Shown piece by piece: positions 6,454 to 28,378 of a stretch of DNA of 29,280 bases. The DNA comes from a virus, in IMG/VR virus record IMGVR_UViG_3300017719_000119, positions 1-29,280 of that record. The stretch is one strand, 5' to 3'. The stretch's first letter is position 1. Each line of letters opens with the position of its first letter. Both the position numbers and the translations under genes were made by a program. The notes under the pieces are model-generated. The model was not told where the DNA came from. It made no database searches and was given only the letters and a program-made list of their open reading frames with translations.

Positions 6454-7227
6454 ATGAAACAAGATTTGATTATTATTGGTTATGGTCACGTAGGCAAAGC
6501 AGTTGATAAGATTTTAAATCCTATACACAGAATTGTCGCAATTGATATTGAGGGTTACCAAAAAAATACAATCACAAAGCACGAAGGATATTCAGCAAAG
6601 GGTATCATTGTTTGTGTGCCTACACCAGAGGCACCAGATGGTAGTTGTGATATTTCTATAGTAGAAAAAGTATTACAAGAAAGTAATAAATTAAATCTTC
6701 CAGTATTAATTAAGAGTACCATTTCAATAGATGGTTACGCTGAACTAGCACATAAATATAGTATTACATATAGTCCAGAGTTTTTAAGACAAAAACATGC
6801 TGTTGACGATATGAAGAATGTTAAAGACATTTTTATTGGTGGTGCAGACGTACCATTTTGGGTAGATGTATTACGAGAGGTGTATCCTATGACAGTTAAG
6901 ATACATGAATGTAGTGTACCTGAAATGATAATGACGAAGTATATAAGAAATTCTTTCCTTGCAACAAAGGTAGTTTTCTTTAATGAGATACATCAACTTT
7001 GTAAGAAACTTGACATAAGTTACGACAAGGTGGTTTCAATGGTAGAGAAAGATGACAGGATTGGATCCAGTCATATGAAAGTACCAGGTGACCACGGTAA
7101 AGGATATGCCGGTGCATGTTTTCCAAAAGACGTGAAAGCATTTTTAAGAACGGCAGAAAAATCAGCAACTAGACTATCTGTTTTACGAACAGTAGATAAA
7201 ACAAATAGGCAACTGAAAGGTGACTAA
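6454..7227 (+). CDS. Short UDP-glucose/GDP-mannose dehydrogenase-like enzyme
   Basis: NAD-dependent nucleotide-sugar 6-dehydrogenase family (oxidation of a UDP- or GDP-hexose to the uronic acid). The N-terminal dinucleotide motif is IIIGYGHVGKAVD; IVCVPTPEAPDG and SPEFLRQ near residue 109 are family signatures; the catalytic cysteine is in GYAGACFPKDVKAF near residue 225, matching the usual GFGGSCFPKD. At 257 residues it contains the NAD-binding and central domains but lacks the C-terminal UDP-binding domain of typical enzymes (about 390-450 aa). It lies directly between the three paralogous transferases and another glycosyltransferase, so it probably prepares a uronic-acid-type donor, or acts on another short substrate. 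Confidence 0.85.
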   Translation: MKQDLIIIGYGHVGKAVDKILNPIHRIVAIDIEGYQKNTITKHEGYSAKGIIVCVPTPEAPDGSCDISIVEKVLQESNKLNLPVLIKSTISIDGYAELAHKYSITYSPEFLRQKHAVDDMKNVKDIFIGGADVPFWVDVLREVYPMTVKIHECSVPEMIMTKYIRNSFLATKVVFFNEIHQLCKKLDISYDKVVSMVEKDDRIGSSHMKVPGDHGKGYAGACFPKDVKAFLRTAEKSATRLSVLRTVDKTNRQLKGD

Positions 7228-19541: not shown

Positions 19542-19761
19542 ATTTTACGAAAAACATCCAACAGAAAACAAAATCAGATGGCGTTATATTGATGAGTCAT
19601 TTGATAGGTTCAATAGAAAATTAATTACAACAGACAGTTGGCATATCATCACAGAGAAAGAGTATTACATGCTCAAAAAAGGTGGTGCAGAATACATCAA
19701 TAGAAAAGAACGTAGAGATTTTAAGAATGAACAAATAAAGATTATGAAAGGTGAGATTTGA
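19519..19761 (+). CDS. Basic hypothetical protein, 80 aa
   Basis: Starts at ATG 19519 (GAGGGA about 9 nt upstream), 23 nt inside the previous gene; the longer frame from 19444 would lie almost wholly in that gene. Lysine/arginine-rich: KKVRPKFYEKHPTENKIRWRY, then INRKERRDFKNEQIKIMK. No recognised domain. The stop overlaps the next start (TTGA). Confidence 0.55.
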   Translation: MQKKVRPKFYEKHPTENKIRWRYIDESFDRFNRKLITTDSWHIITEKEYYMLKKGGAEYINRKERRDFKNEQIKIMKGEI

Positions 19762-20711
19762 AAAAGATACTTGTAACAGGTGGTTTTGGTTTTATTGGTT
19801 CTAGGCTTGTAGAAGAGTTGTCAAAGAACCATGAGGTTATCGTTTTAGATAATAAAGATACCTATGGTACAATTGACGGTGGTGCCAAGAAAAAGATGTA
19901 CAGTTATCGTACACGTAATTGGAAACTAGAACGAATTTCAATTGTTGAGGGCGATATAATAAACCAAAGAGATTGTTTACGTGCCTTTACATTTCAACCA
20001 GACGTAGTTGTTCATTTAGCTGCCTATCCAAGAGCACAGATTGTTGACGACAATCCGGTTTTAGGTATACCAAAACTAGTTTCAGGCACAACTAACTTAT
20101 TGTATAATGCTGATAAATTTCAGACTAAAAGATTTGTTTATGTCAGTAGTAGTATGGTGTATGGTGATTTCAAAGACGGTGTTGAAGAACACGCTGATAC
20201 AAAACCAACAAACTTATATGGTGAGGCAAAACTTATGGGCGAGAGATTAACAAAACTCTTCTGTAAGAAAAACAATATGGATTATATTATTGTCAGACCA
20301 AGTGGTGTCTATGGTAAAGGTGACTTACCAGATAGAGTGATACCTAAATTCTTTGCCAAAGCAATGAAGAATGAAAAGATTACTTTACACAATGGTAATA
20401 ACAAGGTTGACTTTACATATAAAGATGACGTAGTTAGAGGTTTAAAAAAGTGTGCTTTAGAATCACATGTTAAAAACCAAAGTTTTAATATAACAAATGG
20501 TCATGCACATAGTTTAAGAGAACTTGCAGACCACGTTTTGTTTTTAACAGGCAGTGAATCAGAAGTAGAAGATATTGGCGCACATAAATTATATCCTATG
20601 AGAGGTACACTTGATATTAGTAAGGCGAAGTTGTATCTTAAATGGCAACCCGAACATACATTTGAAGAAGGACTAAAAAAATATTATGACTATCTTACAG
20701 GCAGAGACTAA
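19758..20711 (+). CDS. NAD-dependent sugar epimerase/dehydratase (extended SDR)
   Basis: A 317-residue extended short-chain dehydrogenase acting on nucleotide sugars (UDP-glucose 4-epimerase-like). The NAD motif is ILVTGGFGFIGSRL at residues 4-17; the aspartate of VLDNKD closes the adenine pocket; VVHLAAYPRAQ and VYVSSSMVYG precede the catalytic Tyr-x-x-x-Lys in NLYGEAKLMGE near residue 153; IIVRPSGVYGKGDLPD follows. The start is TTG 19758 (GGTGAG upstream), overlapping the previous stop. It is directly coupled to the aminotransferase gene, so the pair probably makes an amino sugar donor. Confidence 0.9.
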   Translation: MKKILVTGGFGFIGSRLVEELSKNHEVIVLDNKDTYGTIDGGAKKKMYSYRTRNWKLERISIVEGDIINQRDCLRAFTFQPDVVVHLAAYPRAQIVDDNPVLGIPKLVSGTTNLLYNADKFQTKRFVYVSSSMVYGDFKDGVEEHADTKPTNLYGEAKLMGERLTKLFCKKNNMDYIIVRPSGVYGKGDLPDRVIPKFFAKAMKNEKITLHNGNNKVDFTYKDDVVRGLKKCALESHVKNQSFNITNGHAHSLRELADHVLFLTGSESEVEDIGAHKLYPMRGTLDISKAKLYLKWQPEHTFEEGLKKYYDYLTGRD

Positions 20712-21807
20712 AATACCATTTACAGATTTGTATTCTCAATATGAAGAATGTAAATCAGAAATAGATTATGGTGTCAGTAGAGTTATTAATGAAACAGATT
20801 TCTTAACAGGTAAAACTACAGAGAAGTTTGAAAAGAGAATAGCAGAATACTGTAAAGCAGAGGCCTGTGCTTCAGTTAATAGTGGTTCTATGGCATTGAC
20901 TTGTGCCTTAAAGGCAGTTGGTGTTGGTGCAGGTGACGAAGTGTTAACAGTTGGTGCCACATTTATTGCTACTACAGAGGCAATATTATCTGTTGGTGCA
21001 AAACCAGTTTATGTAGATATAGATGAATTCTATCACATGGACGTTACAAAGATGAAGAATACTGATAAGATGAAAGCAATCTTATTTGTAGATATGTATG
21101 GTCAAACACCAGATATAAAACACATATTAAGTTTTGCTAAAAGGTTTCAATTAAAAGTTATTGAAGACGCAGCTCATAGTTTTGGTTCAGATTACAATGG
21201 TAAAAAGGTGGGTAGTTTAGTAGATTTGACATGTTTTAGTTTTAATCCAGTCAAGAATTTAGGTGCCTTTGGTGACGCAGGCGCTGTAGTTGGTAAAAGT
21301 AAATATGTAAACATGGTAAAGATTTTAAGAAACCATGGTCGTGGCGAGAATGGTTGTACATGGCAAGGCATAGTAGGTTATAATGGTAGAATTGATAACT
21401 TACAAGCGGCCGTATTAGAAAAGAAATTAAAAAAGGTAGATAGTTGGATTGAAGAGAAACGAGAAGTTGCTCATAGATACACAGACGCCTTAAAAGATAT
21501 TGTAGTTGTACCTAAAGAAACACCTTGGTCTAAACATACGTATTATGTTTATGTCATTATGGTAGAAGATAGAGATAATCTCAGAAAGTTTTTATCTAGT
21601 AGAGGTATTGAGACTAGAATACATTATGCTAAACCTACTTTCAAAAGTTATGATAAGTTGTGGCATAGTTGTCCTAAAACTGAGAACGTAAGTGACATGG
21701 TATTAAGTTTACCATGTTATCATAATCTTCCTGAACACCATCAGGATTACATAATAAATAGTATCAAAGAATATTATAATGAAGGAGACCAAAAACATGG
21801 CGTATAA
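20686..21807 (+). CDS. DegT/DnrJ/EryC1/StrS-family sugar aminotransferase
   Basis: PLP-dependent aminotransferase of nucleotide-keto-sugars (373 aa, normal length). Visible landmarks: NSGSMALTCALKAVGVGAGDEVLTV near residue 65 (phosphate-binding region), VIEDAAHSFGSDYNG near residue 160 (Asp to the PLP pyridine nitrogen), the Schiff-base lysine in SFNPVKNLGAFGDAGAV near residue 188, RNHGRGENG and YNGRIDNLQAAVLEKKL later. It overlaps the epimerase gene by 26 nt. Together they resemble pathways for 4-amino- or 3-amino-sugars of O-antigen and S-layer glycans. Confidence 0.93.
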   Translation: MTILQAETKIPFTDLYSQYEECKSEIDYGVSRVINETDFLTGKTTEKFEKRIAEYCKAEACASVNSGSMALTCALKAVGVGAGDEVLTVGATFIATTEAILSVGAKPVYVDIDEFYHMDVTKMKNTDKMKAILFVDMYGQTPDIKHILSFAKRFQLKVIEDAAHSFGSDYNGKKVGSLVDLTCFSFNPVKNLGAFGDAGAVVGKSKYVNMVKILRNHGRGENGCTWQGIVGYNGRIDNLQAAVLEKKLKKVDSWIEEKREVAHRYTDALKDIVVVPKETPWSKHTYYVYVIMVEDRDNLRKFLSSRGIETRIHYAKPTFKSYDKLWHSCPKTENVSDMVLSLPCYHNLPEHHQDYIINSIKEYYNEGDQKHGV

Positions 21808-24123: not shown

Positions 24124-24498
24124 ATGAAAAAAACAATAATTACATTATTCTTCTCACTTTTAATGTTCCAAGCAATGGCTGGCATGTTAAGAGCACAAGA
24201 AGTTGAAAAACAAATCACTGATTATAATTTCTTTTCTACAGGAATACCAATTCTATGTGGTACACCAGATGAGGTAGGTAGATATACAAAAGACAAAGGT
24301 TTTGAAGTATTTAATGTATCAGTGGGTAAAGCCGGTGCAAGACCAGATGGTGAAGTAGTATATTATGTATTTTACTGGTTTCAACCGAGTGGCACACAAA
24401 CAATGGTTACAATAAGTAATTTAAACATGACCGAGTCATGTATATTGTACCATTCATACGAGACAACTCTATCGCCTATGTTAGGCACAGAGTTATAA
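24124..24498 (+). CDS. Exported hypothetical protein, 124 aa
   Basis: Signal peptide (KKTIITLFFSLLMFQAMAGM, with a likely cleavage after AMA or LRA) and a mature beta-rich part: GIPILCGTPDEVGRYTKDKG, then VVYYVFYWFQPSGTQTMVTI and ESCILYHSY; the two cysteines may form a disulfide. GAGGAAG precedes the ATG. Ends six bases before the first tmRNA stem-loop. Function unknown. Confidence 0.65.
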   Translation: MKKTIITLFFSLLMFQAMAGMLRAQEVEKQITDYNFFSTGIPILCGTPDEVGRYTKDKGFEVFNVSVGKAGARPDGEVVYYVFYWFQPSGTQTMVTISNLNMTESCILYHSYETTLSPMLGTEL

Positions 24499-24504
24499 GA
24501 ATTA

Positions 24505-24566
24505 GTCGTTGACGACAAACATGGTAGGCAGACTGGACTCCGGGGCAGTTCCGGACAGCTCCACCA
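24505..24566 (+). ncRNA. ssrA: Acceptor piece of circularly permuted tmRNA
   Basis: Upstream half of a two-piece tmRNA. T-arm: TCCGG (24539-24543), seven-base loop GGCAGTT (24544-24550), CCGGA (24551-24555). It is followed at once by the acceptor 3' strand CAGCTCC (24556-24562) and an encoded ACCA end (24563-24566). CAGCTCC pairs with GGGGCTG at the 5' end of the coding piece (24689-24695; six Watson-Crick pairs and one G-U). Upstream, ACAAAC (24515-24520) pairs with GTTTGT (24722-24727) of the coding piece, as expected for helix P2. GTCG-TTGA-CGAC (24505-24516) is an alternative small hairpin; the exact 5' end is uncertain. The T-loop lacks the usual TTCRA. Confidence 0.9.
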
Positions 24567-24586
24567 TAAACACACTAGGAGTAAAA

Positions 24587-24676
24587 ATGTTTAATTGGAT
24601 TAAAAATTACTTTGACAAATGGGTCAAAAAAGAAGAAGACCGCCGGATTAGATATTTGAGTGGTAAAGGCAAATAG
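24587..24676 (+). CDS. 29-codon ORF between the tmRNA pieces
   Basis: Short ORF with AGGAGT seven bases before ATG 24587 and TAG at 24674-24676. The peptide is aromatic and basic (FNWIKNYFDKWVKKEEDRRI), an amphipathic helix-like sequence. It occupies most of the 122-nt segment between the two tmRNA pieces, which would normally be removed on maturation. It may be a real gene inserted in the intervening segment, or a chance frame; the ribosome binding site argues for translation. Function unknown. Confidence 0.5.
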   Translation: MFNWIKNYFDKWVKKEEDRRIRYLSGKGK

Positions 24677-24688
24677 TGTGCTTATGAC

Positions 24689-24850
24689 GGGGCTGATACA
24701 GGATTCGACAGGTGTTGAGAAGTTTGTAAGAGGTTAATAGGTGGCAACCTTTCATGCTAATTAAACGCAAACGATAATAACTTTGCATTAGCGGCTTAGT
24801 CGCTTAGGGTTTTGTGGATTGAACCTCGTAACAGAATCAATCCACGCTTT
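24689..24850 (+). ncRNA. ssrA: Coding piece of circularly permuted tmRNA (tag ANDNNFALAA)
   Basis: Downstream half. It begins GGGGCTGATACAGGATTCGA, almost the universal tmRNA 5' end with the D-like loop. AGGTT (24731-24735)/AACCT (24746-24750) forms a PK1-like stem. The tag frame starts at the resume codon GCA (24767) and reads ANDNNFALAA with TAG at 24797-24799. The stop region folds as AGCG (24790-24793)/CGCT (24801-24804), like P5, and a 9-bp hairpin GTGGATTGA (24814-24822)/TCAATCCAC (24837-24845) closes the 3' part. The RNA frees stalled ribosomes with SmpB and tags the nascent chain for ClpXP. The 3' end is approximate. Confidence 0.92.
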
Positions 24851-24883: not shown

Positions 24884-25102
24884 ATGAATAGTAAAGAATT
24901 TAGTTTGATAATTGAGAACATTGTAAAAGATAAGAAACCAATAACTTACCTAGACGCAATAATTCACTACTGTGAGACCGAGAATATTGAGGTTGAAACT
25001 GCTAGTAGAATGATTACCAAATCCCTAAAAGAAAAAATTAAAGCTGAAGCAGCTGAAGTCTGCCTACTTAAAGGTGGTAGACCAGCAAGATTACCTGTGT
25101 GA
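24884..25102 (+). CDS. 33: Late-transcription coactivator gp33
   Basis: Small T4 gp33-type protein (72 aa; T4 gp33 is about 112). It bridges the RNA polymerase flap and the sliding clamp to activate late promoters, together with the gp55 sigma factor. The N-terminus NSKEFSLIIENIVKDKKPITY and the following DAIIHYCETENIEVETASRM helix match the marine T4-like gp33 group; the C-terminus is basic and Pro/Gly-rich (GGRPARLPV). AAAGGTAAGT precedes the ATG. TATAAT at 24861-24866 has no good -35, so the gene may be read from the upstream promoter through the tmRNA region. Confidence 0.8.
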   Translation: MNSKEFSLIIENIVKDKKPITYLDAIIHYCETENIEVETASRMITKSLKEKIKAEAAEVCLLKGGRPARLPV

Positions 25103-27895: not shown

Positions 27896-28378
27896 ATGAA
27901 TCTACCAGAAATAACATTTAAATGTCGTGTCGCCGGTGAGTGGATGGACAAGACAACAGATGATTTTTTTAAAGGCAAACGTGTAGTGCTATTTGCATTA
28001 CCTGGTGCTTTTACACCAACATGTTCAAGTAAACAGTTACCGAAGTACGAAGAAATGTACGACCAATTTATTAACAAAGGCGTATCAGAAATATACTGTC
28101 TATCTGTTAATGATGGTTTTGTAATGAACGCTTGGGCAGACAACCTAAACGTTGAGAAAGTAAAGATGATACCAGATGGCTCTGGTGAATTTACTAGACG
28201 TATGGGTATGTTAGTTAAGAAAGACGATAAAGGATTTGGGTACAGGTCTTGGCGATATGCAATGATAATCAATGACGGTGTTGTTGAACGTGTATATGAA
28301 GAGGCAGGTAAATGCGACAATTGTACGAGTGACCCATTTGAAGTCAGTGGAGCAGAAAATGTCCTATCTGGCTGCTAA
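27896..28378 (+). CDS. Peroxiredoxin (Prx5/AhpE-type)
   Basis: A 160-residue thiol peroxidase that reduces hydrogen peroxide or organic peroxides. The active site is FALPGAFTPTCSSKQLPKYE near residues 33-52, with the peroxidatic Cys after T-P-T and the Thr/Pro pair of the P-x-x-x-T-x-x-C motif. SVNDGFVMNAWAD near residue 78 and SWRYAMIINDGVVERVYEEAG near residue 122 are family landmarks of the Prx5 group. Several later cysteines (KCDNC, SGC) could act as resolving residues. It has its own promoter. It probably protects the infected cell or works with the glutaredoxin at 14042. Confidence 0.93.
   Translation: MNLPEITFKCRVAGEWMDKTTDDFFKGKRVVLFALPGAFTPTCSSKQLPKYEEMYDQFINKGVSEIYCLSVNDGFVMNAWADNLNVEKVKMIPDGSGEFTRRMGMLVKKDDKGFGYRSWRYAMIINDGVVERVYEEAGKCDNCTSDPFEVSGAENVLSGC

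Follow-up and report, generated by a model that had tools for sequence, protein, structure and literature searches.

A probable small protein gene nested in the spacer of a permuted tmRNA gene from a marine T4-like phage

Introduction

In circularly permuted tmRNA genes the piece with the T-arm and the acceptor 3' strand lies upstream of the piece with the tag reading frame, and the intervening sequence (IVS) between the two was formerly taken as throw-away RNA. The locus described here raises the question of whether such an IVS can itself be a gene. It lies in a window of 29,280 nucleotides, by which we mean the whole stretch of viral DNA that was analysed (IMG/VR record IMGVR_UViG_3300017719_000119, positions 1 to 29,280). 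An initial annotation of this DNA, made from its letters alone, had described the tmRNA; the open reading frame (ORF) with a Shine-Dalgarno (SD) sequence that is nested in the IVS was absent from its observations.

The window carries a permuted two-piece tmRNA gene

Positions 24504-24846 on the plus strand of the window carry a circularly permuted (two-piece) tmRNA gene of the alphaproteobacterial type, belonging to a T4-like phage. In a whole-window Rfam scan, tmRNA_permuted (RF04321) matched 24504-24799 with 95.2 bits (cut-off 47, E 1.6e-17) and alpha_tmRNA (RF01849) matched 24468-24846 with 72.2 bits (cut-off 50, E 4.9e-18), both in permuted order, while no other Rfam family reached its gathering score in the window. 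The initial annotation had proposed the permuted two-piece reading and suggested an Rfam comparison as its check; with two tmRNA models above their curated cut-offs in the permuted arrangement, that reading is upheld.

According to the alignments and the sequence, the tmRNA 3' piece (24504-24566, plus strand) comes first, as in permuted genes, and contains the T-arm, the acceptor 3' strand CAGCTCC (24556-24562, plus strand) and an encoded ACCA end (24563-24566). The 5' piece (24689-24846, plus strand) holds the acceptor 5' strand, a D-loop-like region, the tag frame and a 3' hairpin region, and the RF01849 alignment extends to its last base. CAGCTCC pairs with GGGGCTG (24689-24695) at seven of seven positions, including G3:U70, the alanine identity pair, and ACAAAC (24515-24520) is complementary to GTTTGT (24722-24727). 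The tag frame (24767-24799, plus strand), GCA AAC GAT AAT AAC TTT GCA TTA GCG GCT TAG, starts at the resume codon GCA and encodes ANDNNFALAA*; an identical tag is found in loci L203, L018 and most of L584-L599. Its hydrophobic, degron-like end and the stop codon are conserved across relatives. The paired strands, the ACCA and the tag frame were all found where the initial annotation had placed them.

The program ARAGORN did not call a tmRNA in the window, which we judge to be a miss of the program because two covariance models match. When the surroundings of the gene were scanned, sigma-70 promoter and terminator matches were no more frequent than in shuffled sequences. The nearest kin of the window tmRNA are other phage tmRNAs (95% for L203), compared with 64% for the best of 109 bacterial tmRNAs. 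Among phage records, blastn with the window gene gave a confident match to Mosig only.

The initial annotation had regarded phage tmRNAs as mostly one-piece and had left the novelty of this one undecided. A two-piece phage class has in fact already been published: Melnitz, a phage of OM43 (Methylophilales), carries a two-piece tmRNA upstream of a transcription coactivator gene, and 53 two-piece tmRNAs had been counted in phage genomes by 2022, of which 50 belong to phages of marine or aquatic origin (PMC9004378). Mosig, a phage of SAR11 (Pelagibacter), has an annotated SsrA at the place corresponding to the Melnitz tmRNA, and we found an unannotated permuted tmRNA above the cut-off in the Pelagibacter (SAR11) phage HTVC008M (L003:2828-3037, RF04321 90.6 bits). 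Since Melnitz, Mosig and HTVC008M carry such tmRNAs, the window tmRNA itself joins a known class. Like Melnitz and Mosig, the window combines a permuted tmRNA of alphaproteobacterial type with a marine T4-like phage and a position at the gene for the late-transcription coactivator or close to it; it has no glutamine riboswitch above the threshold of the Rfam scan. The own IVS of Mosig is short. Alphaproteobacterial permuted tmRNAs (RF01849, RF04321; PMC11915505) share the piece order, acceptor, T-arm and tag with the window gene, but their IVSs are short.

The intervening sequence holds a candidate gene of 29 codons

The IVS of the window (24567-24688, plus strand) measures 122 nt, starting after the encoded CCA and stopping before the GGGG that opens the second piece, and is predicted to be excised from the mature tmRNA. 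It begins with TAAACACACTA (24567-24577, plus strand), followed by GGAG, five bases, an ATG, a frame of 29 codons and the stop codon TAG at 24674-24676. The SD-like AGGAG (24577-24581, plus strand) recurs, in motif and position, in many viral IVSs. The candidate gene (24587-24676, plus strand) encodes MFNWIKNYFDKWVKKEEDRRIRYLSGKGK; identical or near-identical versions are found in L125, L127 and L282, and distant homologs occupy the IVSs of other phage tmRNAs, for example in L068, L243, L265 and L536. In the minimum free energy (MFE) fold, TAAACACACTA pairs with TAGTGTGCTTA (24674-24684, plus strand), whose first three bases are the ORF stop codon, and covariation of the IVS ends in ORF-bearing relatives is in agreement with this closing helix. 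The MFE fold of the precursor is a single long hairpin made of the acceptor stem and the IVS helix with the ORF as its loop (z about -2.9).

The closest relatives that have the window's tmRNA are without the ORF, and the ORF is therefore dispensable. A PHROGs search with the IVS proteins returned no significant family. Judged by eye, these are short membrane-type or amphipathic-helix proteins, and they are probably ordinary accessory phage proteins whose genes use the tmRNA transcript for expression.

Nested genes are found in phage permuted tmRNAs and in none of 109 bacterial ones

To compare viral and bacterial IVSs, genes were collected with a T-arm pattern that is blind to IVS content, which yielded 107 viral permuted tmRNAs with both pieces. 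An SD-led IVS ORF of at least 20 codons was present in 13 of these 107, as against none of the 109 bacterial genes obtained with the same pattern (Fisher p 7e-5). When only viral IVSs of at least 90 nt were considered, 13 of 45 contained such an ORF, where dinucleotide shuffles lead one to expect 0.8 (maximum 4 in 200 rounds). The bacterial IVS has a median length of 30 nt in the 109 genomes and reaches 90 nt in one of them; that of a Pelagibacteraceae genome is 7 nt.

Further scans brought the collection to 69 distinct ORF-bearing IVSs with several protein families. Homologous as well as unrelated small genes of about 23-77 aa occupy the IVS in dozens of marine phage tmRNAs, including that of the cultured Melnitz, where four phages have a member of the window's family within their annotated SsrA feature (E 2e-9). 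These counts are lower bounds, since the IVS extractor needs a GGGG 5' end and a set T-arm and misses lineages such as L495 (which has GGGCGGC) and L471. IMG/VR contigs may contain some cellular sequence; the phage genes next to ORF-bearing tmRNAs, encoding a T4-type single-stranded DNA-binding protein (L208), a DnaB-type helicase and ThyX (L209), ThyX (L243) and NrdA (L079), support a phage origin in these cases, as in Melnitz.

The substitution pattern of the IVS ORFs was analysed in 17 non-overlapping pairs from other phages. Synonymous differences numbered 160 at 438 sites and non-synonymous differences 158 at 1808 sites, corresponding to a pooled pN/pS of 0.24, and the differences were distributed as 106, 51 and 161 over the three codon positions. 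The other two frames gave pN/pS values of 0.67 and 1.54. Judged from these comparisons, the IVS ORFs as a class are genes under purifying selection at the protein level. In L281 and L441 the IVS has 185 nt, one base fewer than the 186 nt of L208; this puts the nested protein out of frame and shortens it from 52 to 36 aa, which reflects a pseudogene or a sequencing error.

The stop codon lies inside the IVS in 30 of the 69 ORF-bearing IVSs, the window among them, so that the excised window IVS would be a complete mini-message. In the other 39 the frame enters the mature tmRNA 5' piece. Melnitz (L004:1971-2303) belongs to this second group; there the frame extends 42 nt into the mature 5' piece. 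Once excised, an IVS of this group would make a non-stop message, on which the tmRNA from the same precursor could act.

In the literature searched, the coverage of which was partial and does not amount to proof, we found no earlier description of a protein gene in the IVS of a permuted tmRNA. What is known is the permuted phage tmRNA; what appears to be undescribed is the protein gene inside it. The Melnitz paper covers the tmRNA only (PMC9004378), and the Melnitz record tables are without a CDS in the IVS, which nevertheless holds an ORF of the window's family. A 2025 survey mentions a tRNA gene as well as a repetitive element among IVS contents, and in its accessible sections no protein gene is named there; the same sections describe group I intron tmRNAs with a homing endonuclease gene, a nested protein gene being known from 36 of 883 intron forms (PMC11915505). 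The latter resemble the window in having a protein gene nested in a removed part of a tmRNA, but they involve a T-loop site, self-splicing and a selfish endonuclease, whereas the window has an intact T-loop, no Rfam intron family at threshold, and its ORF in the spacer of a permuted gene. A paper on small proteins of S. meliloti was checked in case it had already reported a protein from an IVS, and was rejected, its tmRNA small ORF being the tag only.

The intervening sequence as an exchangeable slot

Comparison of closely related tmRNAs revealed that the IVS changes while the mature RNA hardly does. Between the window and L203, the mature tmRNA shows differences at 2 of 62 and 8 of 150 positions, but the IVS is 122 nt long and coding in the former and 47 nt long and non-coding in the latter. 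A third state, an IVS of 28-29 nt, accompanies the window's T-arm and tag in L584, L585, L587 and L588. Likewise, a single difference in 62 and another in 150 mature positions separate L552, which has an ORF in an IVS of 109 nt, from L560, whose IVS measures 29 nt, and L068 and L314 form a further pair with evidence of cassette exchange. On a tree of 176 mature tmRNA rows the ORF state changes 36 times; the alignment behind it is short, with weak support at many branches, and at least 19 of the changes are forced by well-supported branches.

Some of the nested genes are also found elsewhere. A family of 73 aa lies within the IVS in 6 of the 62 loci compared and outside it in most others, and at 20 loci with the gene outside, the 2-kb flank contains a permuted tmRNA on the same strand with a different IVS. 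The motif HRLHTTKYEDLC, which is the C-terminal motif of longer relatives of the window protein, is the hallmark of a small phage gene that stands on its own in L462. At least two more tmRNA lineages, the Mosig-like L471 and L495 (acceptor GGGCGGC/GCCGTCC), carry this gene inside the IVS. At the level of sequence, comparison shows an IVS that behaves as a replaceable slot, whose content beside nearly the same mature tmRNA can be one gene, a different gene or a minimal hairpin.

The IVS of a permuted phage tmRNA in L146 (2644-2920) contains a tRNA-Arg(TCT) gene (2723-2799), which means that the slot takes RNA genes too. In phages of Sinorhizobium, Mesorhizobium, Ruegeria and Rhodobacter (L579, which is Sinorhizobium phage Phosso, L580, L582 and L583), IVSs of 93-410 nt are without an SD-led ORF; among these large-phage IVSs, that of Phosso (410 nt) is perhaps a structured RNA, and that of Roseobacter phage DSS3P8 measures 106 nt. 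In DSS3P8 (L582:145-578), a GOLLD RNA (RF02032, 150.7 bits) adjoins the permuted tmRNA.

RNA constraint on the IVS ends and alternative explanations

The ends of the IVS are constrained as RNA. Among 46 distinct end pairs from ORF-bearing genes, the eight terminal IVS pairs were standard in 93% of cases, compared with 72% (maximum 79%) when the 3' ends were re-dealt. The IVS ends thus covary as RNA while the ORFs evolve in a protein-like manner. All 46 genes also have an acceptor of seven pairs out of seven with G3:U70, a figure that is largely given by construction because extraction required GGGG, CTCC and at least six of seven pairs.

One alternative is an ORF that acts in cis as a leader, where translating ribosomes would open the closing helix of the IVS, delay or license cutting of the precursor, and in this way couple the supply of tmRNA to translation. 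The SD sequence and the stop codon do abut or sit within the closing helix, and in many families the start is nearly fixed at 18-20 nt from the CCA end. Such a start is, however, also expected from conserved IVS ends, and the scan behind this distance (which was not used for prevalence) itself asked for an SD and an ATG near the CCA end. Moreover, unrelated proteins fill the slot, some of them also free-standing, most families are under protein-level purifying selection, and relatives retain the tmRNA without an ORF. We therefore consider a leader function unlikely. A somewhat less likely proposal casts the tmRNA precursor of the phage as a dual transcript under feedback. Cutting of the tmRNA and translation of the IVS gene would then be competing events within one hairpin. 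In many relatives, moreover, the tmRNA would tag the product of its own excised IVS, which would act as a non-stop message, so that the protein would accumulate only when trans-translation is overloaded.

That the tmRNA is an ordinary one with a longer spacer, and the ORF an untranslated chance by-product of AT-rich sequence, is improbable. In favour of this reading, 29 codons are short for a single ORF, and 21 of 5000 shuffles of the AT-rich window IVS contained an SD-led ORF of at least 29 codons. The close variants of the window ORF show one or two base differences, all of them non-synonymous and too few for a pN/pS of its own, and the coding status of this ORF therefore rests on its distant homologs and on the other families. 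In agreement with a coding function, the homologs in the IVSs of L068, L221, L243, L265 and L536 (for example MFKFIRVWFENWMAKKEENVPKYLGGK in L068 and MFNFIKIWIKNWIEQKEKDRVKYLGK in L243) scored above all 2000 shuffles; the match to longer members such as that of Melnitz was weaker, with 1 of 2000 shuffles as good. The protein-type selection across IVS families, the uneven occurrence in viral and bacterial genes, and the existence of some IVS proteins as ordinary genes elsewhere likewise argue against chance.

The small protein ArfA offers a precedent for yet another explanation: the arfA message can be stop-less after RNase cutting and is linked with tmRNA. Stop-less IVS ORFs, cut by RNase P, might likewise give a product that is tagged by the accompanying tmRNA, as the tally of 39 of 69 and the long frame extension in Melnitz would allow. 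The likeness to arfA holds only for such relatives, as the window ORF terminates inside its IVS, and no sequence relation is claimed. Stops 13 nt into the 5' piece, furthermore, need no selection, because the conserved tmRNA sequence in that frame dictates them. As an account of the window we regard this feedback as quite improbable. Finally, it is hardly credible that the tmRNA is decaying, its gene disrupted by an inserted small gene and its production lost: ARAGORN fails to call it and its RF01849 score lies below that of many relatives, but its acceptor and ANDNNFALAA tag are intact, the IVS ends covary, the insertion is confined exactly to the discarded part, and ORF-bearing members reach 125 bits with RF01849.

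A permuted tmRNA precursor with a probable nested small gene

In this marine T4-like phage, the IVS of a permuted tmRNA gene has probably become a small protein gene, located in a replaceable cassette slot. A single transcript would run from the tRNA-like 3' piece through the SD-led ORF to the tag-bearing 5' piece, and the IVS ends together with the acceptor strands could pair to give a single long hairpin whose loop contains the ORF. Host tRNA-processing enzymes would then free both pieces, with RNase P acting at the GGGG and 3' maturation at the CCA, after which the pieces may re-pair into a working tmRNA that can be charged. Ribosomes could read the ORF either on the precursor or, after excision, on the 122-nt IVS. 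The IVS would be the part of the tmRNA gene with few sequence constraints, which is a likely reason for its use as a cassette site, and recombination between phages probably uses the conserved tmRNA flanks as homology arms.

Read in this way, the spacer is a gene slot in marine T4-like phages, occupied by small proteins that annotation has overlooked and that are selected and exchanged between phages. This suggests a reason why phages retain the permuted gene form, and it makes the IVS a place to look for unannotated phage proteins, of which even the cultured Melnitz has one. It also makes it possible to test directly if a single precursor can double as tmRNA and mRNA.

Neighbouring genes in the window

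The T4-like context noted in the initial annotation was confirmed. Directly downstream, the tmRNA gene is adjoined by a gene for a T4 gp33-like late-transcription coactivator (24884-25102, plus strand; PF16805 with 76.5 bits, phrog_254), which is a neighbour of the tmRNA on the Mosig map too, and genes for a gp59 helicase loader, ThyX and NrdB are located nearby. Elsewhere in phages, a glutamine riboswitch follows directly after the tmRNA in L004 (2356-2404), L217 (13402-13456) and L039 (1019-1072) and lies upstream in L038; that of Melnitz starts past the end of the tmRNA match and not inside it. The window furthermore encodes an FkbM methyltransferase, a UDP-glucose dehydrogenase, a nucleotide-sugar epimerase, an aminotransferase and a peroxiredoxin (1547-2260, 6454-7227, 19758-20711, 20686-21807 and 27896-28378).
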